A stretch of 64,000 nucleotides of DNA, taken from Apostichopus japonicus. Lineage: Eukaryota; Echinodermata; Holothuroidea; Aspidochirotida; Stichopodidae. The position numbers and the translations under genes are program-made. Below are positions 10,301-63,735 of the stretch, in pieces. Under the pieces are notes generated by a model. That model worked only from the letters and a program-made list of their open reading frames with translations. It was not told where the DNA came from and ran no database searches. Position 1 is the first letter of the stretch. Every line of letters begins with the position of its first letter. Where the stretch lies: contig NC_092569.1 in NCBI RefSeq assembly GCF_037975245.1, positions 20,329,001 through 20,393,000 on the forward strand, written 5' to 3'.

Positions 10301-13300
10301 GAATCTTGGATGACGTAAACACGAACCCGATAGAATGTAGCGTATGTATCATAAGTAAGGTCAACATGTTGCCCAACCATTAAAAGTAAAGTTAGGGCGT
10401 TTGCAGGGAAACCGCGTAACAAGACTTCATTAAGTGTCAGTGTGTAACTCAGTGAATGCCTTCGAACTTCCAAGCGATGGTCATTATTGATGCTGACGTC
10501 ACGAGCAATTGATTATCTGAAAATTCCGTAATTGCAAACCTGTTTGGGAAAAAAAATTCGCACACGGGCCTAGGCTGGATGTAACAATGTTGTAGGACCA
10601 TAGCCATATGCCTAGGCTATCATGTGATTTTACACTGTAATTAAGGACTTCAAGCGATATTACCCTCACCCTATAATATGTTTGGTGAAGACAGTGGATC
10701 AAAGAAGATCAAACAACGAATATTTTGAATACTAATTCCGTTTCACTCCTTTCTTACATGTACTTACACATATTAGTTCCCAGTGGACCTAACACCACGC
10801 CATACGCTACGACAAAAGAGGAACAGGACGTATCTACCACCAAGGATGGTAGGCTTGTTTGTTAATTTTGTTTAGTTAAATTCAATTTATTCCCCACCTC
10901 CCCCCAGTAAAAAAAAAAAAAATGTGCAATTTACTGTTAGTTAATGAACCTAAAGGAGAAGTAAGCCTAAAGACCATTGATAACATTATACACTTACTTT
11001 CATGGTTATCATAAGATAAAGATGCAGCCCACCCCCCCCCCCCCTTGCCCCTGTTAATAATAATTTCAATCTGTTTAGAAAATATCCGTGTGTTTAATAT
11101 CGTGAGAACTGTACACTGTTTGGAACTTAAGGCAAGAGCACCCGACCATAGAACATTTTTGGTGAATACAACAGATCAAATAGAGAACGTTTGGAATACT
11201 AAATCTGTTTCACTCATTTCTACCATGACATTACTCACATTCTAGTTACCAGTGAACCTGGTTCAAGTAATGAGGGTACCTCGCTTCCGGTTGACGCCAC
11301 ATCATACACCACGATCCGTACAAACTGCCTTACGAGTAATGGCAGTGTTATACAGGTAAGAATTAGTAATAGCTATGTTTCGATAATGTTTCGATGTAAT
11401 TCAAATTTTTAAATGTTAATAGCTTTGCTATTCTTTACTTTCATTAGCCAAGTTTAAGTTTAAGAATTATTAGAATGCAACTTATTGAAAGTTTCAGTCC
11501 ACTGTTGCGTTTTACATGTGAGTAATACAAATTCGAAAAATGGATAAAGAAATGATGGGAGCCAGATGGAAACATTAAATATTTGTTCATAAACCTTTAT
11601 TTTTTAAGTTATATAATAACCTAATCGATAAGCCTGATTGTACAGTTGTTGACAATATACGGCGGATTTTAGTTTCAAGTTGTTTGTAGAATTGACGTGA
11701 CATATTTTTGGTAACAACGGAATTATAAATATATCTGCATGGAAGAATGTACCGTTGTACTCGTTGTTCTTGGTAAAGAAGACCAAGGAATAACGCAAAA
11801 CAAAGACAAAGGTTTTATCAACTGTACCATGAAACAAATATCAGTGAAGTGATTTGCGAGCTAATTTGGACGGTTATGTGTCTTCCCAGATACAGTAAAG
11901 TAAAACTGCATCTTGACTTAGCGTTTAGTGTGAAGTTAGTTTTTTTTTTTCTGAACAAGCTATATCATCTTCACGCACCCGCTCAATTTAGTCAAGTTGA
12001 TTTTACGCTGTTAGAACCATTTGAATTCATAATAAGTTATTGTGCATTTGGAATACAGACAATTGTATCCTACATAATATAATCTAAGATGATATTTTAA
12101 ACGTAACTTGGAATCTTTGGGGAGGTTTAACAAGATTGCACAATTTCTTGTACGAGTTTGGTAGAATAAAATAAAATAAAATGAATAAAGTAGCTACAAT
12201 TATTAGTATTCTTTCTCTTAACTTTTTGGAGTGTTGATTTTGGTAATGCCATATTATGATAATTACAATGCAAAAGTTTGAGAGTGGAATTCTGTTCTCT
12301 TCATGCAAATAAAATATTATTTAAGTACAAGTTTATTTGATTGGTGTGTGTGTCTGTTTGCATTGTTTCGTCTGGTATTTGAAAAAAAAGTTTTAATTAA
12401 CCATTTTTCTCTGCTGGTAAAAGCCATAAGATAGTATATTGATAGTATATTGCATACAGTGAACCACAGTTCCTTAATTATATGTTTTGTCTTTCAAATG
12501 TTTATGTCCTATATTTCCTGTCGGTTTCATTTAAATCACATTTTAACTTTTGAACTCTTATGACTTGATTTCTCTTTTGATTCAGAATGGTTCACTTCTC
12601 GTGAATGAAGACTGTACAAGGATTTCAACCTGTGATAATGGAGTAATGAACTACAATGATCTCTACCAGTGTAGCTCTGATGCGGTTTGTGAAGTCCGTA
12701 ACGATGTACGCAAATGTTACTGCATGAGTGGTTACCATGGTAATGGAGTGAATTGTACAAAACACATGACCGACTGTAAGAATTGGTACGATGCTGGGAA
12801 CACTACTAATGGTATTTATACCATCATACCAACTAACTGGAGTGGAGCATCATTTGATGTTTCCTGTAATATGACTGACGGAGGAGGATGGACGGTAAGT
12901 CTAGTATGACATCCTATAGTATAGACGATATATTGCATATGTATAATATGACTGACGGAGGAGTATGGACGGTAACTCTAGAATTACATCATATAGTATA
13001 GACGATATATTGTTTATGTATAATATGACGGACGGAGGGGGGTGGACGGTAAGTCTATAGTTTGACATCTTATTGTATAGACGATATATTGTATATGTAT
13101 AATATGACTGACGGAGGAGGATGGACGGTAAGTCTATAGTTTGACATCTTATTGTATAGACGATTGTATATTTTAATATTACTGACGGAGGATGATGGAC
13201 GGTAGGTCTAGCATGACATCCTATAGTTTACACGATATATTGTATATGTATAATATGACTGACATGGGAGGATGGACCGTAAATCTGTTATAACTGCCTT

Positions 13301-16255
13301 TAATATAGACGGTATATTTGATTTTCACTAGAGAGGGGAGGTGTGACACAAAACCCAAACAGCAAACCTAATCCACCTAAACAAACCGCACCCCAACACA
13401 ACCGCACCCAGACACCACCACAACCCCGTATCTGAGCACTGTCTACAGTTTTACAGTGTAAACATGTTCCTCTTTGCGTTATACCTTTTCACATTACTCT
13501 TTAGGTTGTGAAAAGGCAAACTCATTTTCTGTTTCTCATTTTAATGCATTGCATAATTTACGCTAACACTTTCCTTTACATCCTTTGACCACATAACCTG
13601 TGGCGTATTACGTAAATAAGTAATGCGCTATAAAAAATCATACTATTATATCCTATTTACACATGTTTAAGGTTGTGGGCATTTTTGACCTTATTACGTC
13701 ATAACTCTAGTCTATTTTGTCATTTTGATATATACAACAATAGGCCAATGAGAATGGGGGAGAAGTTGCTGACATATTTAGTTTAGACAACCACATGCAT
13801 GTAATTTAGTTGCTCGCTTCAAAATTTGAGAATAAATAACATCTCTTTAAAAGAAACTGGTATAACAGTGTTAGTATAATATTTTATCTCCCCATCAATC
13901 AGATATTCCATCGTCGCGTTGATGGTTCTGTTGATTTCAATCGGACCTGGATCAGCTACAAAGAAGGCTTTGGTGATGTCGGTCATGAGTTTTGGTTGGG
14001 TAACGATAAACTGTATTACCTCACCAATCAAGGCAATTATCAACTCCGGGTTGATTTTGTGATCAGAGATGGTGATCCATTCTATGCTAAATTTGACCGG
14101 TTCCGTATCAACAATGAAAGTGACAACTATCGACTGTCTAGAATTGGAGAGTACAGCGGAAATGCAGGTTTGTGAACAGTTAGGCTATTGTGTGATTAAA
14201 CTTTATAACAGACAATCAATGCTTAAACGTCGTAAAACAAATTTCTCTCTCTTCTCTGAAATTAATTCGATGTAATCATGATTTAAAATCCAATCGGTTT
14301 AATTATAGTTGTCGTTGCTATAATTAAAATGTCAACGTGAAACCCTTCTGATTAGAATGATAATTTCAGGGCGATGGCAACAAGCCCGCCCTAGAAACTC
14401 GAGGGGGACTAATATGATGATATGTTGTATTCAAACCTGTGATTGGTGGACAATAGAACACCTCTAAAATAATAAGTAGCACATCGCTCAAACGAGCAAT
14501 TCCCAAGTAAAGCCAAACAATCGATCAAAAAAATCGATAACCAAATATTATGAAACACATATTTTCTTAACTTGTTTGAAATAATTGAGAGTGAAAAAGT
14601 TTAGTGAGCACGTTCCAGTGATAAATGTAATGGGACTTAAAGGAGGTTACATGGTACAATAAATATATTACAGACTGTAATATATACTGACACTATCCCT
14701 GATAATTTTCACGATGCATGCGCTACAGTAGTTTTGTTACCAATATGATTTTGTGGAAATATCCGTTTGAACTTACTTATGTATGTTTCTACAGACAATA
14801 CACAGATATACGCTAGTGCTGAAGGGACAATAAGTCAACAATGTCACAATATCCGTTGTAGCAGGATACGTCTTAATTTAAAATCACTCTCGTTGGACGA
14901 ATCCAGATCAATTTAAAGTTTTATGCTGAGCATATAAAAGCAATCCACGGAAGCTTTGAAAGCACATCCAATATTATATTAATATTAAGAAGAAGACAAG
15001 AGGAAACCATATGTTTCGGTTGACGTACGAGACACGTTAAGATCGTAGGATAATATGGACAGAAGGAGAAGTATATTCATTATAATATTAATAATAATTT
15101 GTGAATAGAATTTTTAAGTAAACTGGTAATATTTGGATGTCAAATATGTTTTGATTAAGTCTGGCAATGTATTTCTTTATACGTAAGCTGCATGTAATCA
15201 TTCCATGGTAATACACGCTATAATAATAATAATTAAATATTTCACACAAGTTTTATCAAAGATAGTGATTTTTTTTTTACATTGATTTCGCTTACGTAAA
15301 TTATGAGTAACTCCTTACCTGTATAAAGTTTGCATTTTATTACCACTTTTATGTTTATAATTTTATTTTGTTTTTATTGATGGCATTAAATAAAAATGAT
15401 ATTTCCGTATTTTAGACAGTAATCTTAAAAAGTATACAGACCAAGCGTTTAGCAGTTTGTCGGCATATTGAAAAATTAAAACAATGTAAAATAACAATGT
15501 CTTTTGGACCATATTCAAGTTTACTGTTAGTAACTCAAATTCAGGTGAAGCGGCAAGGAACTCAATTGGGGAGTGGGAAGGGGGGGGGGGTGGGAGTGGG
15601 TTTTCAAAACCTTTCAGGGATAGAGAGGCATGTGACATTGGGAAAACCACGTCCGTGAGAAAGACCCTATGTTAATTTTATTTGTTGTTTTTCAACGGCA
15701 CATTACTTTCATTAAAATTGTCTTTAAGTTGTCAAAATAGAGTATTTTCACAAAATTGGGAGGAAGTGAGAAATTCATCCCCAGCACTGTGCCCGGATCT
15801 TCTTCACTTTTATTTTGTTTTTATCTTTTATCTTCAAGCATTATAATATGATAATAGAGATTGGATAGTTGATAATATGATATCTCGTGATGTTTTGAGA
15901 TAATTTCCCAACTATGATGCATATTACTCTATCACGACGTTGATTGTTTATGGTTTTATTTTCAACTCAATATGCATTACCATAATTAAAATGCGTTCAT
16001 GGTATTGTTTAATATTTAGGTGGTGCTGGAGGTTTAAAGAATCGCTTGAATTATTCCTTCAGTACCTCGGACAAGAACAATGGAGGATGTTCGGATGACT
16101 ACCATTGTGGCTGGTGGTTCCGGGATTGTAATTTACGTTGCCTCAATGGTGACTATCATGCAGCGCGGAATGTAAGGTCAGGTGTATCCTGGTATAGAGA
16201 GTCTGGTTCCTATGATAATATCAAGTATACTGAGATGAAGATAAGGCCTGTCTAG
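5533..16255 (+). CDS. Gene A: secreted EGF / fibrinogen-domain lectin-like protein (FREP-type), 377 aa
   Basis: Seven exons join in frame: 5533-5587, 7950-8036, 10777-10848, 11246-11355, 12586-12894, 13903-14167, 16020-16255 (1134 nt including TAG). All introns are GT-AG. Residues 1-19 form a signal peptide, 20-48 a unique segment with one Cys, 49-108 a Ser/Thr-rich linker, about 118-165 an EGF-like domain (six Cys from 124 to 165, plus an extra Cys118), and about 170-377 the FBG domain. FBG hallmarks are DC-x-x-WYDAG at 171-179, GGGWT at 207-211, the [13 protein letters not shown] stretch, EFWLGN, GWWF at 330-333 and the terminal EMKIRP. Proteins of this type are extracellular pattern-recognition lectins in invertebrate immunity; ligand and specificity cannot be read from sequence. 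Possible N-glycosylation sites include NTT at 180 and NYS at 310. The start is the only ATG before the hydrophobic core. Confidence 0.9.
7224..7660 (+). mobile_element. Unit-A-specific insertion with 25-bp direct flanking repeats
   Basis: An identical 25-bp sequence lies at 7224-7248 and 7636-7660. Gene B has it once (about 27499-27523) with nothing inserted. The 387 bp between start with a CA/TA microsatellite and contain no coding domain. This may be a retroposed sequence with a long target-site duplication or a local duplication that captured a microsatellite; I cannot assign a family. Confidence 0.5.
7244..7321 (+). repeat. Compound CA/TA dinucleotide microsatellite
   Basis: About 17 CA units with one interruption, then about 20 TA units, at the left end of the unit-A-specific insertion in intron 1. 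Confidence 0.95.
7950..8036 (+). CDS. Gene A exon 2, unique N-terminal segment
   Basis: Symmetrical phase-1 exon of 87 nt reading [20 protein letters not shown] and then MQVHTANEG. It has a single Cys that could pair with the Cys of exon 4 or with Cys118. Gene B has H for Y in GYF. No domain match is recognised. Confidence 0.85.
8953..9022 (+). pseudogene. Relic linker exon (copy A)
   Basis: After a CTAG acceptor, the sequence aligns with the start of exon 4 ([15 protein letters not shown] against [16 protein letters not shown]) but has no usable donor and runs into intron-type sequence and a TAG. It appears to be a third, decayed copy of the linker-exon module. The inverted-repeat transposon lies just downstream. 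Confidence 0.6.
9208..10561. mobile_element. Non-autonomous inverted-repeat DNA transposon (1354 bp) in gene A intron 2
   Basis: The ends are perfect inverted repeats of about 31 bp (from 9208 inward and from 10561 inward), with looser inverted similarity beyond. A 9-bp direct repeat ACACGGGCC flanks it at 9199-9207 and 10562-10570. Gene C has the empty site: one copy (ACATGGGCT) at about 54600 with both flanks joined. There is no transposase ORF; short frames inside are not meaningful. A 9-bp duplication fits Mutator-like elements; an 8-bp reading would also permit hAT or P types, so the superfamily is open. Confidence 0.85.
10777..10848 (+). CDS. Gene A exon 3, short Ser/Thr linker
   Basis: Symmetrical phase-1 exon of 72 nt: [20 protein letters not shown], then TKD. 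It is a shorter version of gene C exons 3a and 3b, having lost 33 nt of the central GSSN part. The donor is GTAGGC. Confidence 0.85.
11246..11355 (+). CDS. Gene A exon 4, linker to EGF
   Basis: Enters in phase 1 and leaves in phase 0. Reads [20 protein letters not shown], then [16 protein letters not shown]. The acceptor must be the CTAG before TTACCAG; the CAG seven bases later would put the exon out of frame. One Cys lies just before the EGF exon. Confidence 0.88.
11356..12585 (+). other. Gene A intron 4
   Basis: AT-rich intron with the same counterpart in B (32136-33367) and C (55407-56630). I see no genes, transposons or strong repeats in it. Confidence 0.6.
12586..12894 (+). CDS. Gene A exon 5, EGF-like domain and start of FBG domain
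   Basis: A 309-nt, phase 0-0 exon of 103 codons (residues 109-211). The EGF-like Cys are at 124, 137, 143, 152, 154 and 165, with the usual C-x-C then GYxGxG spacing. The FBG domain begins with DC at 171-172, and its first disulfide partner is Cys202. The exon ends at GGGWT, where the intron splits the classic GGWTV-FQRR sequence. Its last 27 or so nt and the donor seed the downstream minisatellite. Confidence 0.93.
12866..13330 (+). repeat. Minisatellite copying exon-5 end and 5' splice site (copy A, about 6 units)
   Basis: Units of about 73-79 bp each repeat the exon-5 tail (TGACTGACGGAGGAGGATGG), the donor ACG|GTAAGT and about 45 bp of intron. The first unit is the real exon end; the sixth is degenerate. 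Some donors are mutated (GTAACT, GTAGGT, GTAAAT). Counted by eye. Confidence 0.9.
13903..14167 (+). CDS. Gene A exon 6, central FBG domain
   Basis: Phase 0 in, phase 1 out, residues 212-299. Begins [16 protein letters not shown], where B and C have [10 protein letters not shown]. Contains EFWLGN and the [10 protein letters not shown] segment. The donor GTTTGT is weak and the same in all three genes. Confidence 0.92.
14168..16019 (+). other. Gene A intron 6
   Basis: AT-rich. It lacks a block of about 250 bp that B (about 35962-36208) and C carry near the start. A G-rich run lies at about 15582-15591. No gene is seen. Confidence 0.55.
16020..16255 (+). CDS. Gene A exon 7, C-terminal FBG domain
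   Basis: Residues 300-377 and TAG. Contains [11 protein letters not shown] (the usual calcium-loop place), then CGWWFRDC and CLNGDYH. Besides the family Cys pair 323/336, there are two extra Cys at 329 and 340. Ends TEMKIRPV. Confidence 0.94.
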
Positions 16256-16905: not shown

Positions 16906-18329
16906 ACAGACCTACTTAGAAATATAAATCATTCAAGTACAGATGCTTATTGGGCAAAGTAAATTAGAATAATTGTTAAATTGGACAGGGTTGTCAGTTG
17001 GTATATTAAATAATACATCGGTTATTACTAATTGATTGGTAAAATACTGCCTTTGTTTTAAATTGTAACTGACATACTTTCTCACCAGGATTTAAACATC
17101 TACTCTGGCTGTATTGTAACAAGCTATAAATAAATTCAAAGCAGGAAAAGTTATCGTTGTTAACAATCTACATTAATGATTATAAAACAGTCTATGTACT
17201 ATCATTCTTTATAAATCTTCTTTGTCGATCCAGAAATTATTGCAAATTTATTCGAAAAATATCCGCGAAGAAGAATACAACAGAAAAGAAAATCAAGAAA
17301 GAGAGATAAATATTAGTATATATTACGATTTGTTTTGCGACGAAATTAGTAATAGTTTCAAAATTGTAGGCAAAATCGGATAATGCCGGACGAAGAATTG
17401 GCTAAGATTGTATTTATTCACTATTATTCTTCAATAATGGTAAAGGCGAAGCAAAACCATATCAATTATTTATTTGTAGTTAATATCCATCCCATTTCCC
17501 CTTCCCTTATCATCGTGTACAATTATCATTGAGTATAATTTCACTTTAATCTATTTCAAATGATTATAGGAAGAAAACATTCAAAATCATTTTTTGTAAA
17601 TATAGTTATAAATATTATTTGGAGATTCGATAAATATATGTAGTCACTCAAAAGTCAGCTTATTTCTTGTTATTGCCCTGTTTTCGTCGTTTTTTCTGTC
17701 TCCATAATGTCTCTAAAATGTCTTCTATAGTTTGGACCAATTCCAAGTTTAACAACCACCATCGTATGTTCAGATATATTAAATGGATTACCCATACCTA
17801 ATATGCCAATTTACTTAATCCCGACTCCCCAATCTGCTAATTAATATAATCCGTCATCGATATGTCACTTTAGAAACCTGTTGTAGTTTCCATCGTTAAC
17901 GATTATGTCATGATTCACCCCCCCCCCCCTCTGTCCTCCCCCAGGAATCAGATTCCCTACATCGGAACCAGCTTCAACGGTCCCACGGTCACACTTGCTC
18001 CTTTATCAGTTTATTAAATCCTGGATCCGTCTCAGATGACAATAGGTTCTTTCACTGACTGATGACGGTTGAGTCATTCTCGAGGAAACGATGTGTGATA
18101 TTCTGTCTGTGTATGTATGTATGTATGGGGGGGGGGGGTTGGGGTGTGGAGTGGAGTGGTGGGGAGATTCGAGCGTTAGGCTGCGTTATCTGACTGAGTA
18201 TCATTGCCAGGCTAGTAAAATGAATATGAACATCAGAAAAGACACTCAGGTAAAAATATTTGACATTATTCTATTTATGAGATTTCTCGAAATGAACGAA
18301 ATATACGGAATGAAACGGTATGAAAGGGT

Positions 18330-18504
18330 ATGAACGGGATGAACGGGATGAATGGGATGAGCGGGATGAGCGGGATGAGCGGGATGAGCGGGATGAGCGG
18401 GATGAACGGGATGAACGGGATGAACAGGATGAGCTGGATGCACGAGATGATCGGGATGACCGGGAACGAACGAACGAACGAACGAACGAACAAACGATCG
18501 AACG
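18330..18504 (+). repeat. 9-bp GATGAGCGG minisatellite and AACG repeats (unit A)
   Basis: A run of GATGARCGG units to about 18455, then AACG tetranucleotides. Open frames here in several registers (repeated RDE or SGM) are repeat artefacts. The same locus is larger in B and C. Confidence 0.9.
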
Positions 18505-20444
18505 AATTAAATTGAATTGAATGGAATCAAATTAAAACCAAGGAATGAAATCCATCGAATTGAAATCTGTTGAAATTCATCGACGAAATCGATGAAAAAT
18601 CGGTATATCGATGAAATCGATAACCCATGTTGAGTAAGGTGCAGAGGTATACTATTATATTTAATTTGTTCATATTTGGCAAACCATTAATGTCACAATA
18701 ATCCAAAAATATCCCAAACTAGAAATTTTACTATAAAAAATAAATTTAAAAGTTTACTTACTTTGTCAGTGAACGATCAACATCCTTTTAATGAGTAGGT
18801 CAAAGATCGTTTCCGGTCAACAATAATGAAATTATAAAAACTAATTACACCCGCTATTTAAACTAAGTACAGTATCATATAACTTTTTTTATGATTTTAT
18901 GTATGAAGCCTGTATGAATACCATATTTAATATAACTGTTTCTTTTATCTTGTTTGTTTCTTTGTTATACTTTCTTTCATTGGATGTCAAAAAAAAAAGA
19001 ACTGCACTAAAAGAACGAATGTGAAAACCGAGAATACTCTCCCATAACGTTCACTCTGGTTTAGTAGTGTAAATGTAATACGTAGATTGGAGTCGATCTT
19101 AATCTTCACATCAAACACCGATAAATATGTTTAACCTTAATAATTATTCGTGCAATTTACAGTGTGCAGCATTGCAAGTTACACTACCAACGAAAACAAA
19201 GCACAGGCCAGTATATGTTACTCGTACGTACTTTCATAGATGCGTAGTATTTTACTTGCTTACTAAGATCGTTAATATGAATACCAGAATTCCGAGCTAT
19301 TTGAAAGAAATGCAATAAAACCAGGATTATTCGAACTTCAAACTGTTAGGCAACGAATCCGAAACACTAGTAAATTTCTGCAGAAGAGCGCGACGTGATT
19401 TGAACTGTGTCATACGGTAAACGTTGTAGTGTGATAGTGATGTAGTGATATAGTGATCTATTTCCGCACCGCCACTTATAAACAACAGCTCATTATATGT
19501 TGGATGTTATCACAGTAAGCGTCAGCCCCGAACGAGTGTAGTCAATAATCTAACACTGGAAGCGTATATGATTTCTAGAAGGATACGTCTATAGATTTAC
19601 GTAAACATTGGATGGTTTGGTATGTATTGAATGATCTTAGCACTAACCATACGCTATTGTTTAGGTACCATCACCATACATAAAGCATGTTGTATGCTTA
19701 TCGTATTCAATTTACGCTCTTTACATTGTTTGTGATTTAATTTGTTGATTTCATTAGTAATATCAATGTCATAATACAGTACGCCATATTCTCAAATCTA
19801 GGCATAGTTGACTTCAAACGACTAACGAGAAAACAGCAATATCTGCCAGTGTATATTTGTTTGTGTATCGTCACTTTATCCTGTATAACGAAGTACGCGA
19901 AAATTATTTTTTAATAATCCAATGGATTGTGTAGTTTATAGGCAGCTGATTTAAGTTCCTTTGAAAACAAACTGAGGAGAGAGTCTCAGTTTGGTTGATT
20001 AATCTTTAGTCACGTTTAACTAGTATTGACTGTCTTGGTATAGTTTTGATCAATGCTACTGTCATCCAATGGAAGAAGGAACGAAGGTGTACTGAAGATA
20101 TTCCAGAAAAGCTGAGCTTTTTACATACAAGCGATTACACAAGGTCACCGTGAAGGAAGAAAAGTTGAGGGATGACCATCGAAAGACGACCACGTAAGTA
20201 TGCATTCAAAATGATGCATCTCGCGTCAGTATGGACAGCGGTGGATGTGGACATAACCGTTTACATGCCCTACTACTCCCCTGTTTAAAAATGCTTCAAA
20301 GGTGCCTCAAATAAGCTCATGCTTAGCATTGGATTGAACATGTACCTACAGTACAGATATGCGTCACTTTTTAGATGAACGGCGAGGTAATTATGACGTC
20401 AGCGATAAGTTTGTTTTTCATTTGCAAGCGAAGATGTTCACAAG

Positions 20445-32000: not shown

Positions 32001-35000
32001 TACCATGACATTACTCACATTCTAGTTACCAGTGAACCTGGTTCAAGTAATGAGGGTACCTCGCTTCCGGTTGACGCCACATCATACACCACGATCCGTA
32101 CAAACTGCCTTACGAGTAATGGCAGTGTTATTCAGGTAAGAATTAGTAATAGCTATGTTTCGATAATGTTTCGATGTAGTTCAAATTTTTAAATGTTAAT
32201 AGCTTTGCTATTCTTTACTTTCATTAGCCAAGTTTAATTTAAGAATTATTAGAATGCAACTTATTGAAAGTTTCAGTCCACTGTTGCGTTTTACATGTGA
32301 GTAATACAAATTCGAAAAATGGATAAAGAAATGATGGGAGCCAGATGGAAACATTAAATATTTGTTCATTAACCTTTATTTTCAAGTTATATAATAACCT
32401 AATCGATAAGCCTGATTGTACAGTTGTTGACAATATACGGCAGATTTTGGTTTCAAGTTGTTTGTAGAATTGACGTGACATATTTTTTTGTTAACAACGG
32501 AAATATCATTATATCTGCTTAGAAAAATGTACCGTTGCACTCGTTGTTCTTGGTAAAGAAGACACAGAAAACACGTACAACAAAGACAAAGGTTTTATCA
32601 ACTGTACCATGAAACAAATATCAGTGAAGTGATTTGCGAGCTAATTTGGACCGTTATGTGTCTACCCAGATACAGTAAAGTAAAACTGCATCTTGACTTA
32701 GCGATTAGTGTGAAGTTAGTCTTTTTCTGAACAAGCTATATCATCTTCACGCAACCGCTCAATTTAGTCAAGTTGATTTCACGCTGTTAGAACCATTTGA
32801 ATTTATAATAAGTTTTTGTGCATTTGGAATACAGACAATTGTATCCTACATAATTTAATCTAAGATGATATTTTAAACCTAACTTGGAATCTTTAAAGAG
32901 GTTTAACAAGATTGCACAATTTCTTGTACGAGTTTGGTAGAATAAAATAAAATTAAATCAATAAAGTAGCTATAATTATTAGTATTCTTTCTCTTAACTT
33001 TTTGGAGTGTTGATTTTGGTTATGCCATATTATGATAATTACAATGCAAAATAAAGCTTGAGGGTGGAATTCTGTTCTCTTCTTGCAAATAAAATATTAT
33101 TTAAGTACAAGTTTATTTGAATGGTGTGTGTGTCTGTTTGCATTGTTTCGTCTTGTATTTGAAAAAAAAAAGTTTTAATTAACCATTTCTCTCTGCTGGT
33201 ACAAGATTGAAGATAGTTTATTGATAGTATATTGCATACAGTGAACCACAGATCCCTAATTATATGTTTTGTCTTTCAAATGTTTATGTCCTATATTTCC
33301 TGTCGGTTTCATTTAAATCACATTTTAACTTTTGAACTCTTATGACTTGATTTCTCTTTTGATTCAGAATGGTTCACTTCTCGTGAATGAAGACTGTACA
33401 AGGATTTCAACCTGTGATAACGGAGTGATGAACTACAATGATCTCTACCAGTGTAGCTCTGATGCGGTTTGTGAAGTCCGTAACGATGTACGCAAATGTT
33501 ACTGCATGAGTGGTTACCATGGTAATGGAGTGAATTGTACAAAACACATGGCCGACTGTAAGTATTGGTACGATGCTGGAAACACTACTAATGGTATTTA
33601 TACCATCAAACCAACTAACTGGAGTGGAGCATCATTTGATGTTTCCTGTAATATGACTGACGGAGGAGGATGGACGGTAAGTCTAGTATGACATCCTATA
33701 GTATAGATGATATATTGTATATGTATAATATGACTGACGGAGGAAGATGGACGGTAAGTCTAGTATGACATCCTTTAGTATATACGATATATAGCATATG
33801 TATTATATGACTGACAGAGGAGGATGGACGGTAAGTCTAGTATGACATCATATAGTATATACGATATATAGTATATGTATAATATGACTGACGGAGGTGG
33901 ATGGACGGTAAGTCTAGTATGACATCATATAGTATATACGATATATAGTATATGTATAATATGACTGACGGAGGTGGATGGACGGTAAGTCTAGTATGAC
34001 ATCCTATAGTATAGACGATGTATTGTATGTATAATATGACTGACAGAGGAGTATGGACGGTAAGTCTACTTTGACATCCTATAGTATAGACGATATATTG
34101 TATATGTATGGTATGACTGACGGAGGAGGATGAACGGTAAGTCTAGTATGACATCCTATAGTATATACGATATATAGTATATGTATAATATGACTGACGG
34201 GGAGGATGGACGGTAAGTCTATAGTATGACATCCTATACTATAGACGATATATTGTTTATGTATAATATGGCGGACGGAGGAGGATGGACGGTAAGTCTA
34301 TAGTATGACATCTTATTGTATAGACGATATATTGTATATGTATAATATGACTGACGGAGGAGTATGGACGGTAAGTCTAGTATGACATCATGTAGTATAT
34401 ACGATATATTGTATATATTTAATATGACTGACGGAGGAGGATGGGCGGTACGTCCAGTATGACATCCTATATTATAGACGATACATTGTATAATATGACT
34501 GACGGAGCAGGATGGACGGTAAATCTATTATAACTGCCTTTAGTATAGACGGTATATTTGATTTTCACTAGAGAGGGGAGGTGTGACACTAAACCCAAAC
34601 AGCAACCCTATTCCACTCAAACAAACCCCACCCCAACACAACCGCACCCAGACACCACCACAACCCCGTATATGCTCACCGTCTACAGTTTTACAGTGTA
34701 AAACTGTTCCTCTTTGCGTTATGATTTTCTACATTACTCATTGAGGTTGTAAAAAGGCATAATCATTTTCTTTTTTCATTTTAATTCATTGCATAATTTA
34801 CACTTACACTTTCCTTTACATCCTTTGACCACATAACCTGTGCAGTGGCGGAGCGTCCAAACAGTCAGCTGGAGCGGATGCCCCCCCCCCCCCCCCCCTG
34901 ACGGACTCAAATGGACTGCGGGCGACCTTTTCAGCTCTTAACCACTTTTTACTTATTCACGATTATTGACTTTTTTATTGCGCTCTCATCTATAAATATT

Positions 35001-38000
35001 GACATTTGTCACATTTTGTTGGTCTAATTTGGAGATGACACCTATTTAATTCTTCGTTTATCTGCAAATTAGCCAGGCCCGAAAAGGGTCATTTCCTGCG
35101 ATCTAGGGATTGTCTTTACTTAAAACAAATGTGTACGCTACGCGCCAATCTGTGGTGGCGCTCCGCTTAGATAGGGTTGAAAGCGCCCCTTCAGACCATT
35201 CTCGCCCCCCCCCCCTGACCAATACCCCTAGCTCCGCCACTGAACCTGTGGCGTTTTACGTTGATGAGTAATGCACTATAAGCGATCAGAATATGATATC
35301 CTATTTACACATGTGTAAGGTTGTGGGCATTTTTGACCTTATTACGTCATAGCTCACGTAGGAACCACATTTATTTTGTCATTTTAACATATACAACAAT
35401 GGGCCATATGCAGTTTTCACCTCTTGGAGTTTCACCTCTGACCTTGTGCGCTAAGATGAACGTCTTTTCTTTTCCGGATTGAGAATGGGGGAGAAGTTGC
35501 TGACATCTTTAATTTAGACAACCACATGCATGTAATTTAGTTGCTCGCTTCAATATTTGAGAATAAATAACTTTTCTTTTAAAAGAAACTGGTTTTACAG
35601 TTTCAGTATTATATTTCTCTCCCCCCATCAATCAGGTATTCCAACGTCGCGTTAATGGTTCTGTTGATTTCAATCGGACCTGGATCAGCTACAAAGGAGG
35701 CTTTGGTGATGTCAGTCATGAGTTTTGGTTGGGTAACGAAAAACTGTATCACCTCACCAACCAAGGCAATTATCAACTCCGGGTTGACTTTGTGAACAGA
35801 AGTGGTAATCCATTCTATGCTAAATTTGACCGGTTCCGTATCAACAATGAAAGTGACAACTATCGACTGTCTAGAATTGGAAAATACAGCGGAAATGCAG
35901 GTTTGTGAACAGTTAGGCTATTGTGTGATTAGATAATCAATGCTCAAACGTCGTAAAACAAATATACTCATGTCGGCCATGTTAATGATGCATTCGTGGT
36001 GATAATCAAAGAGTAATATATATTAGTATAACCGTATATATTCTATAGCGTCGGTGAGGTAACACCGATCGGTAGAGGGCACATACGGTATTTACAGGCT
36101 GGGATAATGATTTATTGATTTATAAAGATAGTCTATGGAGCCTAGCAAAAATAAGTGACTGCGATATAATCGATTAAGCAAATTCAAGTTGATTTTCCCA
36201 TGATTTATTTCTCTCCTTCTTCTCTGAAATTAATACGATGTAATCAGAATTTAAATCCAATCAGTTAAAGTAAAGTTGTCGTTGCCTTTATTAAAATATC
36301 AATGTGAAACCCTTCTGATTAGAATGATAATGTCGGGGCAATGGCAACAAGCCCGCCCTAGAAACTCAAGGGGGACTAACATGATGATACGATGTATTCA
36401 AACCTGTGATTGGTGGACAAAAGAACACCTCTAAAATAATAAGTATTAATTAGCACATCGCTCAAGCGAGCTATTCCTAAGTAAAGCCAAACAATCGATC
36501 AAAAAAAATCGATAAAAAAATAAATAATGTAAAAGATATTATTTTCTTAACTTGTTCGAAATATTCGGGCGTGAACAAGTTAGTGAGCACGTTCCAGTGA
36601 TAAATGTAATGGGGCTTAAAGGAGCTTACATGGTACATTAAATATATTACAGACTGCAATACATACTGACACTATCCCTGATAATTTTCACGATACATTC
36701 GCTACAGTAGTTTTGTTACCAATATGATTTTGTGGAAATATCCGTTTGAACTTACTTATGTATGTTTCTACAGACCATACACAGATATACGCTAATGCTG
36801 AAGGGACAATAAGTCAACAATGTTACAATATCCGTTGAAGCAGGATACGTCTTAATATAAAATCACTCTCGTAGGACGAATCCAGATCAATTTAGAGTTT
36901 TATACTAAGCCTATGATAGCAATTAAATCTACCGCCACATCTTTACAGTCCACGGAAGCTTTGAAGGCGCTCCCAATCTTATGTTAATATTAAGAAGAAG
37001 AAAAGAGGAAACCATATGTTTCGGTTGACGTACGTGACACGTTAAGATCGTAGGATAATATAGACAGATGGAGAAGTATATTCATTATAATATAAATAAT
37101 AATTTGTGAATAGAATCTTTCAATATACTGGTAATATTTGTATGTCGAACATGTTTGGACTAAGTCTGGCAATTTATTTCTGTATACGTAAGCTGCAAGT
37201 TGTCATACCATGGTAATACACGTTATAATAATAATAATTAAATATTTCACACAAGTTTTATCAAAGATAGTGATTTGTTTACATTGATTTCGCTTACGTA
37301 AATTATGAGTAACTCCTTACCCGTATAAAGTTTGCATTTTATTATCACTTTTATGTTTATAATTTTATTTTGTTTTTTTGTTTTAATTGATGGCATTAAA
37401 TAAAAATAATCTTTCCGTATTTTAGACAGTAATCTTAAAAAGTATACAGACCAAGCGTTTAGCAGTTTGTCGGCATATTAAAAATTAAAACAATGTTAAA
37501 TAACAATGTCTTTTGGACCATATTCAAGTTTACTGTTAGTAACTCAAATGCAGGTTTAGCGGGAAGAAATTCAATTTTGGAGTGGGAAGAAGGGGGGGGG
37601 GGTCGGAGTGCAAAACCTTCCAGGGACAGAGAGGCATGTGACATTGGGAAAATCACGTCCGTGAGAAAGAACCTATGTCAATTTTAGTTTTTGTTTTTCA
37701 ACGGCACATTATTTGTCATTAAAATTGTAATTAAGTTGTCAAAATTGAGTATTTTCACAAACATTGGAGGGGTGAGAGATTCATCCCCAGCCGTGCGCCC
37801 GGAACCTCTTCCCTGTAATTTTGTTTTATCTTTGATCTTCACACATTATAATATGATAATAGAGATTGGATAGTTGATAATTCGATAAATCGTGATGTTT
37901 TGAGATAATTTCCCAACTATGATGCATACTACTTTATCACGACATTGATTTTTTGTTTTACTTTCAACTCAATATACATTACTATAATTAAATGCTTACG

Positions 38001-38385: not shown

Positions 38386-40215
38386 GAAATAAGACACATT
38401 AAAAATAGTTAATTGTTAAATATCCGTGTTTAGACCTCCTGCTATCATTCTTATAATGATGTATATTTAATGTTTGTTACACAGAGTGAACCTGTAAGTA
38501 TATGTGGTAAATAGCTACTTTATTTCCCTCAATTTTACTTCAATGCGTAATATTTAGATTGACATTACGATTAAAGTTAGTGTCTGGAATTTAGCAACTT
38601 CTGTTTGTTTCTTTGGTTGTTTTTTTTATCAAAAAAAATTATGTTATAATAACTGGTTACCTTTCATAACTCACAGATCACTAGTGGATTGACTGATGTG
38701 TGTTAATTGTAGCCTGTAGGTTCTTAATGATAACAACAGATTAACGTTAGAGCTGATAATTATCACCTCAGCTGACAGACCTACTTAGAAACAGAAATCA
38801 TGTTAGTCCAGTTGCTAAATACATGAAATACATACATAAAATTAAATACATCGGTATTGCAAAGTGATAGGTAAAATACTGCCTTTGTTTTAAATTGTAA
38901 CTGACATAATTTCTCACCAAGATTTCATCATCTACTCTGGCTGTATTGAAACAAACTATAAATAAATTCAAAGCAGGAAAAGTTATCGTTGTTAACAATC
39001 TACATTAATGATTATTAAAACAGTCTATGTACTATCATTCTTTATAAATAATCTTTGTCGATCCAGAAATTATCGCAAATTTATTCGAAAAATATCCGCG
39101 AAGAAGAATACAACGTTCAGAAAGGAACATCAAGCAGGGGAGCTTGATATTAGTATATATTACGTAACTTGTTGTGCGACGAAATTAGTAACAGTCTCAA
39201 AATTGTAGGCAAAATCGGATAATGCCGGACGAAGAATTGGCTAAGATTGTATGTATTCGCTATTATTCTTCAATAATGGTAAAGACGAAGCAAAACCAGA
39301 TAAATTATTTATTTGTAGTTAATATCCATCCTCTTTCCCTTCCCTTATCATCGTGTTCAATTATCCATGAGTATCATTTCACTTTAATCTATTACAAATG
39401 GTTATAGAAAGAAACAATTTAAGATAATTTCATAAATATATTTATAAATGTAATTTGGAGATTCGATGAATATATGTAGTCACTCAAAAGTTAGCTTATT
39501 TCTTGTTATTGCCCTCTTTTCGTCGTTCTTTCTGTCTCCATTATGTCTCCAAAATTTCTTCTATCGTTTTAAACAATTCCAGATTAATCAACCCCAATTG
39601 TGCAACAGATATATGAAATGGATTATCCATCCGTAATATGCCAGTTTACTTAATTCCCGACTCCCAAATCTGATAATTTACATAATCCGTCCTCGATATA
39701 TCACTTTAGAAACCTTTTGTAGCTTCCATGGTTATAGATGCTGTCATGATTCACCCCCCCCCCCCGCTCTGTCTTCCCCTAGGAATCAGCATCGGAATCA
39801 GTTTCCATATACATCGGAACCAGCTTCATCGGTCCCACGGTTACACTTCCTCCTTTATCAGTTTATAAAATCCTGGATCCGCCTCAGACGACAATATCTT
39901 CTTACACTGACTTATGACGGTTGACTCATTCTCGAGGAAAACAATGTATGCTATGCTGTCTGTGTATGTATGGGGGGAGGGGGGGGGTCGTTGGGGGTTG
40001 TGGAGGTGTGTCGTGGTGGGGAGATTCGAGCGTTAGGCTGCGTGATCTAACTGATTAAGTATTCAGGCTACTAAAATGAAAATATGAACGTCACAAATGA
40101 CACTCAGGTAAATATATTTGACATGAATATTTTTATGAGAGCTGCTCTCATTCTCGAAATGAACGAAATATACGGAATGAAACGGAATGAAACGAAATGA
40201 AACGGAATGAAACGG

Positions 40216-40390
40216 AATGAACGGGATGAGCGGGATGAGCGGGATGAGCGGGATGAGCGGGATGAGCGGGATGAGCGGGATGAACGAACGAAGGAACGAA
40301 CGAACGAAGGAACGAACGAAGGAACGAAGGAACGAAGGAACTAACGAACTAACGAACAAACGAACTAACGAACTAACGAACGAACGAATT
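40216..40390 (+). repeat. 9-bp GATGAGCGG minisatellite and AACG/AAGG repeats (unit B)
   Basis: About seven 9-bp units, then imperfect AACG, AAGG and AACT tetranucleotides. Confidence 0.9.
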
Positions 40391-40503
40391 AAATTGAATT
40401 GAATGAAATTAAACCAAGAAATGAAATCAATGGATTTGAAATATATTGAAATTGAATGGGATGAACGGATAAACGGATGAACGGACGGAATAAACGGACG
40501 GAC

Positions 40504-40701
40504 GAAAGAACGAACGAACGAACGAACGAACGAACGAACGAACGAACGAACGAACGAACGAACGAACGAACGAACGAACGAACGAACGAACGAACGAACG
40601 AACGAACGAACGAACGAACGAACGAACGAACGAACGAACGAACGAACGAACGAACGAACGAACGAACGAACGAACGAACGAACGAACGAACGAACGAACG
40701 A
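40504..40701 (+). repeat. AACG tetranucleotide microsatellite (about 48 units)
   Basis: Almost perfect run, much longer than the nearby run in unit A. The repeated NERT frame over it is not a gene. Confidence 0.97.
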
Positions 40702-42246
40702 ATTAAATTGAATGGAATGGAATGGAATGGAATGAAATTAAAACCAAGAAATGAAATCCATCGATTTTAAATCTGTTGAAATTCACCGACGAAATCGATG
40801 AAAAATCGGTATATCGATGAAATCGGTAACCCATGTTGAATAAGGTGCATAGGTATACTATTATCTTTAATGTGTTCATATTTTGCAAACCATTAATATC
40901 ACAATAATCCAAAAATATCCAAAACTAGAAATTTTATTATCAAAAATATATATTTTTTGTCAGTGAACGATCAATATCCTTTTAATGAGAAGGTCAAAGA
41001 TCGTTTCTGGTCAACAATAATGAAATTATAAAAACTGTTTACACCCGCTATTTAAACGAAGTACAGTATCATATAACTTTTTTATGATTTTATGTATGAA
41101 GCCTTTATGAATACTCTATATGAAATATCTGTTTTTTTTTATCTTGTTTGTTTCTTTGTTACTTTCTTTCATTGTATGTCAAAAAAAGGGAACTGCAATA
41201 AAAGTAACAAGTGTTACAACCGCGAATATTCTCTCATAACGTTCACTTGGTTTATTAGTGTAAATGTAATACGTAGATAGAAGTCCATCTGAATCTTCTA
41301 ACTTGTATCTATCACTTTCAAAACAAACACCAATACATAATTTAACCTTAATAATTATTCGTGCAATTACAGTGTGCAGCATTGCAAGTTACAGTACCAA
41401 CGAAAACAAAGCACAGGCCAATATATGTTACTCGTACGTACGTTCATAGATGCCCTAGTATTTTCATTTGCTTGCTAAGATCGTTAATATGAATACCAGA
41501 ATACCGAGCTATTTGTAAGAAATGCAATAAAACCAGGATTATTCGAACTTTGAACTGTTAGGCAACGAATCTGAAATACGCGTAACTCTCTGCAGAAGAG
41601 CGTGACGTGTTTAAACTGTGCCATACGGTAAACGTTGTAGTGTGATAGTTATATAGTGATATAGTGATCTATTTCCGCACCGTCACTAGTAAACAACAGC
41701 TCATTATATGTTGGATGTTATTACAAGAAGCGTCAGCCCCGAATGATTGTAGTCAACAATCTAATACTGAGAGCGTATAGTCTGCATGGTTTGTACAAGG
41801 ATTCGTTTATAGATTAACGTATACATTGGATGGTTTGGTATAGAATTGAATGATCTTAGCACTAACCATACGCTATTGTTTAGGTACTATCACCATTCAT
41901 AAACCATGTTGTATGCTTATTGTATTCAATTTACGCTCTTTTCATTTTTTTGTGATTTAATTTGTTGATTTCATTAGTAATATCAATGTCAAAATACAGT
42001 ACGCCATATTCTCAAATCTAGGCATAGTTGACCTCAAACGACTTACGAGAAAACAGCAATATCTGCCAGTGTATAATTGTTTGTGTATCCTCATTTTATC
42101 CTGAATAACGAAGTATGCGAAAATCCATTTTAATAATCCAATGGAATGCGTAGTTTATAGGAAGCTGATTTAAGTTCCTTTGAAAACAACTGAGGACAGA
42201 GTCTCAGTTTGGTTGATTGAATCTTTAGTCACGTTAAACTAGTATG

Positions 42247-51068: not shown

Positions 51069-61255
<10,187 letters not shown>

Positions 61256-63384
61256 TGCGTGGTAGATGTTTAGAATAATTATCAGCTTCGAATAATCTAG
61301 AGATAACTTAAACATCATACACAGAGAATGATGATAAACTGATCACCATCGGCAGTGAAAAAAAGTTATTAATGTTGAAAATAAAGAAACAAGACACATT
61401 AAAAATAGTTAATTGTTAAATATTCGTGTTTAGACCTTCTGCTATCATTCTTATAATGATGCATATTTAATGTTTGTAACATAGAGTGAACCTGTAAGTA
61501 TTTTGGTAAATAGCTACTATATTCCCCTTTATTTTAATTTAATATGTAATCTGTAGACATTACGATTCAAGTAAGTGTCTGGAAGTTAGCAACTTCCTTA
61601 TTTTGCTTGGTTGTCGTGTTTTTGAGTTTCTTTGATTTTTTTCATTATGTTATAATAACTGGTTACCTTCCATACCTCACAGATCACTAGTGTATTGACT
61701 GATGTGTATAAATTGTAGCCTGCAGGTTCTTAATGATAACAACAGATTTACGTTAGAGCTGATAATTATAACCTCAGCTGGAATTTAGCAACTTCTGCTT
61801 TTTTTATGAAAACAAATTATGTTATAATAACTGGTTACCTTTCATACCTCACAGATCACTACTGGATTGACTGATGTGTGTTAATTGTAGCCTGTGGGTT
61901 CTTAATGATAACAACAGATTAACGTTAGAGCTGATAATTATCACCTCAGCTGACAGACCTACTTAGAAATATAAATCATTCAAGTACAGATGCTTATTGG
62001 GCAAAGTAAATTAGAATAATTGTTAAATTGGACAGGGTTGTCAGTTGGTATATTAAATACATCGGTTATTACTAATTGATTGGTAAAATACTGCCTTTGT
62101 TTTAAATTGTAACTGACATAATTTCTCACCAAGATTTCATCATCTACTCTGGCTGTATTGAAACAAACTATAAATAAATTCAAAGCAGGAGAAGTTATCG
62201 TTGTTAACAATATACATTAATGATTATAAAACAGTCTATGTATTATCATTCTTTATAAATCTTCTTTGTCGATCCAGAAATTATCGCAAATTTATTCGAC
62301 AAATATCCGCGAAGAAGAATACAACAGAAAAGAACATCAAGCAGGGGAGCTTGATATTAGTATATATTACGTAACTTGTTGTGCGACGAAATTAGTAACA
62401 GTCTCAAAATTGTAGGCAAAATCGGATAATGCCGGACGAAGAATTGGCTAAGATTGTATGTATTCGCTATTATTCTTCAATAATGGAAAAGACGAAGCAA
62501 AACCAGATAAATTATTTATTTGTAGTTAATATCCATCCGCTTTCCCTTCCCTTATCATCGTGTTCAATAATCATTGAGTATCATTTCACTTTAATCTATT
62601 ACAAATGGTTATAGAAAGAAAAAAATTAAGATCATTTCATAAATATATTTATAAATGTAATTTGGAGATTCGATGAATATATGTAGTCACTCAAAAGTCT
62701 TGTTATTGCCCTCTCTTCGTCGTTCTTTCTGTCTCCATTATGTCTCCAAAATCTCTTCTATCGTTTTAAAAAATTCCAGATTAACCAACCCCTATCGTGC
62801 AACAGATATATTAAATGGATTATCCATCCGTAATATGCCCATTTACTTAATTCCCGACTCCCAAATCTGATAATTTACATAATCCGTCCTCGATATATCA
62901 CTTTAGAAACCTTTTGTAGTTTCCATGGTTATAGATGCTGTCATGATTCACCCCCCCCCCCTGTCCTCCCCCAGGAATCAGCATCGGAATCAGTTTCCCT
63001 ATATCGGAACCAGCTTCAACGGCACCACGGTCACACTTCCTCCTTTATCAGTTTATAAAATCCTGGATCCGTCTCAGATGACAATAGGTTCTGTCACTGA
63101 CTTATGACGGTTGAGTCATTCTCGAGGAAAAAAATGTGTGATATTCTGTCTGTATATGTATGGGGGAGGGGGGGGGGGGTGGCGGGGTGATTCGAGCGTT
63201 AGGCTGCGTTATCTAACTGATTTAGTATCATTGCCAGGCTACTAAAATGAATATGAACATCACAAATGACACTCAGGTAAATATATTTGACATGATTATA
63301 TTTATGGGAGTTGCTCTCATTCTCGAAATGAACGAAAGATACGGAATGAAACGTTATGAGACGGTATGAAACGAAATGAAACGG
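61256..63384 (+). other. Spacer downstream of gene C
   Basis: Matches the spacer of gene A more closely than that of B and keeps the 150-bp duplication (about 61644-61955). C- and G-runs lie at about 62950 and 63166-63179. No gene is supported. Confidence 0.55.
61380..61385 (+). other. Polyadenylation signal of gene C (candidate)
   Basis: AATAAA 125 nt after the stop, aligned with those of A and B. Confidence 0.6.
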
Positions 63385-63735
63385 AATGAAACGGTATGAA
63401 CGGGATGAACGTGATGCACGTGTTGAACGGGATGAGCGGGATGAGCGGGATTAGAGGGATGAGCGAGATGAACGGGATGAGCGGGATGAACGGGATGAAC
63501 GGATGAACGGAATGAGCGGGATGAACGGGATGAGCGGGATGAACGGGATGAACGGGATGAACGGGATGAACGGATGAACGGAATGAGCGGGATGAACGGG
63601 ATGAGCGGGATGCACGGCATGAGCGGGATGAGCGGGATGAGCGGGATTAACGGGATGAACGAGATGAGCGGGATGAGCGAGATGAACGGGATGAGCGGGA
63701 TGAACGGGATGAACGGATGAACGGCATGAGCGGCA
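63385..63735 (+). repeat. 9-bp GATGARCGG minisatellite at array edge (unit C)
   Basis: About 38 units with A/G variation at the sixth base and some 8-bp units; a stretch of about 70 bp is itself repeated (63484-63540 and 63550-63615). After it, homology to A and B is lost. Confidence 0.9.

Follow-up and report, generated by a model that had tools for sequence, protein, structure and literature searches.

Three fibrinogen-related genes with intronic arrays

The window, the whole 64,000-nucleotide stretch of Apostichopus japonicus DNA analysed here, lies on contig C9 at 20.33-20.39 Mb of a genome of 671.6 Mb in 35 contigs. It holds three similar genes, copies A, B and C, at a spacing of ~21-23 kb. 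In all three, exon 1 encodes a putative EGF-like part followed by the beginning of a fibrinogen C domain, ends in NMTDGGGWT and is followed by GTAAGT. The joined exon translations score 170.1 bits against Pfam Fibrinogen_C (cut-off 22; E 8.5e-50), and the exon translations match 68 PDB sequences at E <= 1e-10, the best being a ficolin-1 chain; for the EGF-like part, EGF_3 (26.5 bits vs a cut-off of 28.5) and TILa (19 vs 27) score below threshold. The features are as follows.

12592..12894, + strand: exon 1 of copy A, the extent matched by tblastn (putative EGF-like part and fibrinogen domain start, ending NMTDGGGWT); the real donor GT is at 12895-12896
12867..13327, + strand: array A, 6 units, unit 1 overlapping the real exon end and donor (Tandem Repeats Finder and unit-by-unit reading)
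13903..14169, + strand: exon 2 of copy A (fibrinogen domain middle)
16058..16249, + strand: exon 3 of copy A, matched part (fibrinogen domain end)
33374..33676, + strand: exon 1 of copy B
33649..34567, + strand: array B, 12 units (Tandem Repeats Finder and unit-by-unit reading)
35636..35902, + strand: exon 2 of copy B
56637..56939, + strand: exon 1 of copy C
56912..58293, + strand: array C, 18 units (Tandem Repeats Finder and unit-by-unit reading)
59361..59627, + strand: exon 2 of copy C

Tandem Repeats Finder reports 77-bp arrays at 12867-13286, 33649-34558 and 56912-58284, and when each unit is read in turn the arrays hold exactly 6, 12 and 18 units, 71-79 bp in length and mostly 77 bp. Each unit consists of the last 28 nt of the fibrinogen-domain exon (the T of TGT plus the nine codons of NMTDGGGWT), the donor and ~43 nt of further intron; the exon-derived part is 28 nt long because the exon ends at 12894, directly before the donor GT. 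The units stand head to tail, fall within the ~10-100 bp range of minisatellites and vary in number between genes. The initial annotation had taken the repeat for a minisatellite that grew from the end of an exon together with its 5' splice site, and both this description and its counts of 6, 12 and 18 hold. Its unit make-up was also right in kind, with lengths of ~27 nt and ~45 bp for the exon and intron parts where we read 28 and ~43 nt, and array A is present where it was placed, running from 12867 to 13327 instead of 12866 to 13330. The intron half of the last unit is divergent in each of the three arrays, as expected for an array edge. The suspicion that the 6/12/18 ratio may be chance is confirmed, since array sizes elsewhere in the genome range from 2 to some 66-80 units (for example 2, 3, 5, 13, 15, 28, 37, 41 and 66-80), and we discard it as a rule.

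Other repeats accompany these genes. A 16-bp C/A-rich repeat follows each 77-bp array (13374-13419, 34613-34659 and 58339-58385), and a 9-bp satellite (ACGGGATGA) lies near the 3' end of A, B and C (18305-18506, 40172-40702 and 63380-63733), with GAAC repeats beside it in A and B.

The array recurs through a large gene family

A search of the animal's own genome with the unit returns at least 785 matches, scoring having covered 39 of the 127 candidate regions. With up to 3 mismatches allowed, a 40-base pattern of the unit has 1164 genome matches (408 + 756 by strand) against 0 for the reversed control; part of these are real exons, because a real exon end can differ from the pattern at only two bases. 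Among the matches listed, at least ~41 genomic places are represented on C2, C7, C8, C9 and C18, matches less than 10 kb apart being merged. The corresponding protein search with the exon gives 150 scored matches among 1175 candidates, most of the 150 on C9.

We read 32 arrays, namely A, B and C and those of a further 20, 1 and 8 loci. All except one (L017) start at the end of the same exon, exon 1. Sizes run from 2 units (L056) to 66-80 (L017, depending on threshold), and from 2 to ~75 among genes in which exon 1 was found. Twenty more distant paralogues were also read. The exon end is shared by 19 of these and is followed by GTAAGT in 17 of the 19, none of which has a unit (array-less meaning here no unit in the ~1.4 kb of intron read); the other paralogue, L030, carries an array. 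The array is a feature of a large fibrinogen-related gene family, present in the same intron in dozens of paralogues, which the initial annotation had missed.

Six arrays (L019, L021, L028, L049, L050 and L054) are interrupted by stretches of ~0.4-3.8 kb in which no units were recognised and which may be insertions. The intron starts of two of the 19 array-less genes, L036 and L033, are weakly like one unit, scoring 39 against a shuffle maximum of 37 and 33 against 37, respectively; this is suggestive only of a single-copy ancestor of the unit.

Units are alike between diverged genes

Across 24 arrays we collected 629 internal units, excluding the first and last of each array, with a finder that accepts up to 11 mismatches in a 37-base anchor. 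It overlooks some aberrant units, detecting 11 of the 12 in array B, and is biased towards the consensus. The consensus of the internal units differs from the query unit at 0 positions in 14 arrays, at 1 in 8, at 2 in B and at 3 in L026. Mean unit difference is 0.065 within arrays and 0.074 between them, the window arrays being less alike (0.109 among themselves); units of L009, on another contig, differ from those of C9 arrays by 0.070, as much as C9 arrays differ among themselves. Outside the repeat, exon 1 differs by up to 0.31 between array-bearing genes, and the post-array intron gives no alignment between A/B/C, L009/L023/L025 and the rest. Sequence has been exchanged between these paralogues, whose units are nearly alike while the rest of the genes has diverged; descent of the genes alone would not be expected to keep the intron half of the unit while its flanks were lost.

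The same pattern appears in silent sites of the real exon end. Among 31 array-bearing genes (L017, with no exon 1 found in 2.8 kb, is left out of exon counts), the last five codons are identical at their four-fold sites in all 1801 pair comparisons, pairs not being independent, while four-fold differences per site are 0.27 upstream in exon 1 and 0.21 in exon 2. The 19 array-less genes differ at the same sites in 271 of 648 comparisons, vs 0.57 upstream. An earlier count of silent sites covered 21 of 22 genes, without L016, which the later counts include. Counted on trees, the tail of the array-bearing genes has 0.2 changes per site (5 sites), fewer than the upstream part of the exon with 1.57 (7 sites; p 0.013) and exon 2 with 1.4 (25 sites; p 0.038); for the array-less genes the values are 2.5 in the tail (4 sites), 4.0 upstream (p 0.074) and 2.6 in exon 2 (p 0.52). 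The exon end appears to have been caught up in the unit exchange, the silent-site contrast being moderate and drawn from few sites.

An alternative is that a need at the DNA or RNA level, such as a splicing enhancer or a G-rich structure, has kept these silent sites, with no part for array exchange. The invariance of the four-fold sites would fit, as would the retention of GG runs in 85% of the 629 units. Against it, the array-less paralogues have the same exon end, mostly with GTAAGT, and do differ at these sites, the tree-counted contrast being moderate; we consider this explanation unlikely.

Ancestry changes across the array

In 14 genes at C9 26-37 Mb, two classes can be told apart on the 5' side, V with 8 genes and W with 6, and two in the post-array intron, alpha (8) and beta (6), with a mutual identity of 65-75%. 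Every pairing of front and back is represented, by 6 V-alpha, 2 V-beta, 2 W-alpha and 4 W-beta genes. The classes were named after part of the data had been seen, and the trees hold 14 of the 27 array-bearing genes for which both exons are available. The other 13 (A, B, C, L009, L023, L025 and L049-L055) are left out, having introns outside alpha/beta or unclassed beforehand, as are L022 and L027, whose exon 2 or 3' side lies beyond the fetched piece.

On the 5' side, trees of the stretch 5-110 bp upstream (13 genes, without L021), of that 30-1400 bp upstream (12 genes, without L018 and L021) and of exon 1 (14 genes) all recover V|W with 100/100 support, and alpha|beta is rejected on each (p 1.7e-60, 2.8e-5 and 1.7e-7, respectively). 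On the 3' side, trees of the post-array intron (14 genes) and of ~600 bp after exon 2 (12 genes, without L021 and L028) recover alpha|beta, again with 100/100 support, and here it is V|W that is rejected (p 3.5e-10 and 2.5e-101); well-supported branches of the post-array intron tree require at least 3 V/W changes.

Single sites tell the same story. In 13 genes (without L021; 12 for the two outer pieces), 59 sites 5' of the array split perfectly as V|W and 0 as alpha|beta, vs 1 and 143, respectively, on the 3' side. In successive pieces towards the array the perfect V|W sites number 24, 14, 20 and 1 (base 4 of unit 1), and the informative sites that fit neither split are 216 of 240 (-1400 to -110), 3 of 17, 2 of 22 and 7 of 8. 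Beyond the array, the last unit, intron, exon 2 and the stretch after exon 2 hold 0, 62, 0 and 81 perfect alpha|beta sites and 0, 0, 1 and 0 perfect V|W sites, with 14 of 14, 34 of 96, 19 of 20 and 31 of 112 informative sites fitting neither. The front of these 14 genes (upstream sequence and exon 1) and the back (the rest of the intron and the sequence after exon 2) have different histories, which change across the array. Two genes on other contigs, L054 (C7) and L055 (C2), combine a V-like exon 1 with an alpha-like back.

The window copies also change partners at the array: in the 460 bp directly 5' of it A and B agree on 16 sites vs 2 and 6 for the other pairs, and in the 300 bp directly 3' of it B and C agree on 26 sites vs 2 and 4. 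This switch of ancestry between gene halves had escaped the initial annotation.

Long, similar arrays are difficult to assemble, and mis-assembly could in principle produce both the unit numbers and the mosaic joins. We regard this as highly improbable: several genes share each of the front and back classes, and arrays are present on five contigs.

Some loci depart from the common layout. At L017:2805-8600, 66-80 units precede an alpha-type 3' side, and the 2.8 kb upstream contain nothing recognisable as exon 1; the copy may be a broken one. At L027:3335-4373 (gene orientation, the stored locus being reversed), the end of an array leads into a beta-type post-array intron and then into a W-type exon 1 with its own ~75-unit array, so that a back intron is joined to a front exon. 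Four alpha-type genes (L011, L012, L016 and L018) carry another tandem repeat, ~54 bp by match spacing, 3' of exon 2.

Exchange also occurs away from the array

These genes have exchanged sequence outside the array as well. Between alpha and beta genes the difference in exon 2 is 0.02-0.09, and on the exon 2 tree alpha|beta is weakly rejected (p 0.034) and V|W is not (p 0.16). Exon 1 with ~100 bp of upstream intron is a patch common to L009, L023 and L025. The window trio is patchy as well: the 5' side totals 104 sites for A=B, 30 for B=C and 38 for A=C, and the 3' side 56, 101 and 94, respectively, with single intervals favouring other pairs. Exon 1 and exon 2 distances correlate at 0.79 in 11 array-less genes (rank 0.55), at 0.41 in 20 array-bearing genes (rank 0.46) and at 0.11 in the 16 array-bearing genes that remain without A, B, C and L009 (rank 0.17), the array-less and array-bearing sets differing in depth.

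The array makes up a large share of the region, and some breakpoints could fall there by chance. The arrays might then be passive, neutral minisatellites that grew by slippage and were kept alike by general gene conversion within the cluster, the switch lying in the array merely through its length. The exchange seen in exon 2, in the window trio and in the exon 1 patches agrees with this, and so does the lack of site-specific constraint in the units described below. Against it stand the 0 perfect alpha|beta sites 5' of the array and 0 perfect V|W sites in the 3' introns of the 13 genes, and a unit consensus that hardly changes between classes with introns only 65-75% identical or unalignable. 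We consider such a passive origin of the switch somewhat unlikely.

The ladder of look-alike donors

As the initial annotation described, the real donor is followed by a ladder of look-alikes. In the window, GGTAAGT is kept in 27 of the 33 look-alike units and the remaining six keep GT; across the 24 arrays, GT is kept in 606 of the 629 internal units and the exact nine-base donor ACGGTAAGT in 483. The description of a stop soon after each donor also proved accurate: the frame through the real donor stops within 4-9 codons in all 31 array-bearing genes read, and any later donor, if used, carries the same early stop. The consensus unit contains no good acceptor, its best AG being preceded by 9 of 16 pyrimidines in a crude test. 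It thus differs from intron gain by tandem duplication, in which, according to the available text of PMC4974935, the duplicated stretch supplies a usable acceptor and donor.

The number of variant events per column in the 629 units is 7.0 for the donor, 6.25 for the next 16 intron columns, 7.9 for the exon-derived part and 10.8 for the far intron, and GTAAGT ranks 32nd in intactness among 72 hexamers. Measured against the whole intron half, the donor had looked constrained, with 9 GT-breaking events vs 22.8 expected, 13 events at +4 to +6 vs 31.6, and non-silent changes at 0.64 of expectation; we dropped this constraint because the near intron is equally constant. A raised variability of third codon positions in the units was likewise set aside, being mostly carried by CpG columns. 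Judged from this variation, the retention of GT and of the donor bears no sign of selection.

The decoys had been proposed to compete for U1 binding and to slow splicing or yield truncated products, and a functional ladder of this kind might poison splicing and set the protein level. The high retention of GT and of the exact donor and the early read-through stop in every gene read are what such a function would predict. The look-alike donors are, however, no more constant than the adjoining intron and lead to an early stop on use, so that the DNA lends a splicing role no support; a unit number that ranges from 2 to ~75 between genes with exon 1 also counts against it, and on these sequence data we take it to be quite unlikely.

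The closest known parallel to the donor ladder is the human IFI6 (6-16) minisatellite, which has a 12-nt unit and whose later donors give longer in-frame proteins. In that array two downstream repeat units serve as donor sites, according to the available text of PMC4526556. The present arrays are similar in being minisatellites with repeated donors, starting at the exon end in 31 of 32 arrays and keeping GT in nearly all internal units. They are unlike IFI6, a single gene, in having a 77-nt unit and in recurring across dozens of paralogues where gene ancestry changes; use of a later donor would also give no longer in-frame protein here, the stop coming within 4-9 codons after the first donor.

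Relation to other exchanging gene families

For the exchange, the nearest precedents among the sources available to us in part are the SmPoMuc genes of Schistosoma mansoni and the sea urchin SpTransformer (Sp185/333) genes. In the mucin genes, exon 2 with flanking intron forms genomic repeats more than 93% alike between loci, ascribed to concerted evolution, and the genes are mosaic (PMC2576457, in its available text). The likeness lies in repeats of exon plus intron sequence that are alike between loci and in mosaic genes; as far as that text goes, whole exons are repeated there and breakpoints are evenly spread, whereas here the repeat is an exon end and donor without a good acceptor. The SpTransformer genes are, like those studied here, a clustered, fast-changing immune gene family with several kinds of repeat, and the available text describes no exon-end-plus-donor array that we could find. 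Expanded, clustered fibrinogen-related (FREP) genes are reported from A. japonicus itself in the accessible part of PMC5638244, and a clustered expansion of such genes in sea cucumber also in that of PMC13228809; the large clustered family matches ours, and we found no such array described in the part of PMC5638244 available. In the open-licence literature searched, we found neither an exon-end/donor array in a gene family nor a paper that joins a donor ladder, paralogue exchange and the fibrinogen-related expansion.

A probable origin and role of the array

Taken as a whole, the arrays are probably a homogenised minisatellite, born of a splice junction, that lies at the joints between fronts and backs of paralogues and helps to make them. 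It would have arisen by tandem duplication of the end of the fibrinogen-domain exon with the donor and ~43 nt of further intron. Homology supplied by the array would then allow pairing between diverged paralogues, with chimeric genes arising through ectopic crossing-over or long gene conversion. Splicing would normally use the first donor, and the ladder would be mostly tolerated baggage, since a later donor gives the same early stop. The array is located at the joint; we infer that it also helps to cause the joining. If this is correct, a tandem repeat derived from a splice site extends into coding exons and also sits where the parts of chimeric genes meet in a large family, and it provides dozens of natural replicates, each with one to several dozen extra donors, for studying donor choice and repeat-steered gene shuffling.

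A more tentative and doubtful proposal is that the array acts as a recombination station, actively promoting exchange between paralogues and yielding new combinations of front and back, with the shared exon end and splice phase keeping the joins readable. Immunoglobulin switch regions, where intronic G-rich tandem repeats join one front to different backs, offer a comparison; there the breaks are somatic and deaminase-driven, and here the ancestry switch across the array records germline history only. The coding strand of the arrays is G-rich, with a GC skew of 0.38-0.39 vs a mean of 0.03 (sd 0.12) in 900-bp windows. G-quadruplexes or R-loops are possible on such arrays, and the G-rich coding strand is a possible cause of the exchange. 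The highest GC skew in the window falls in the 2-kb bin 56001-58000.
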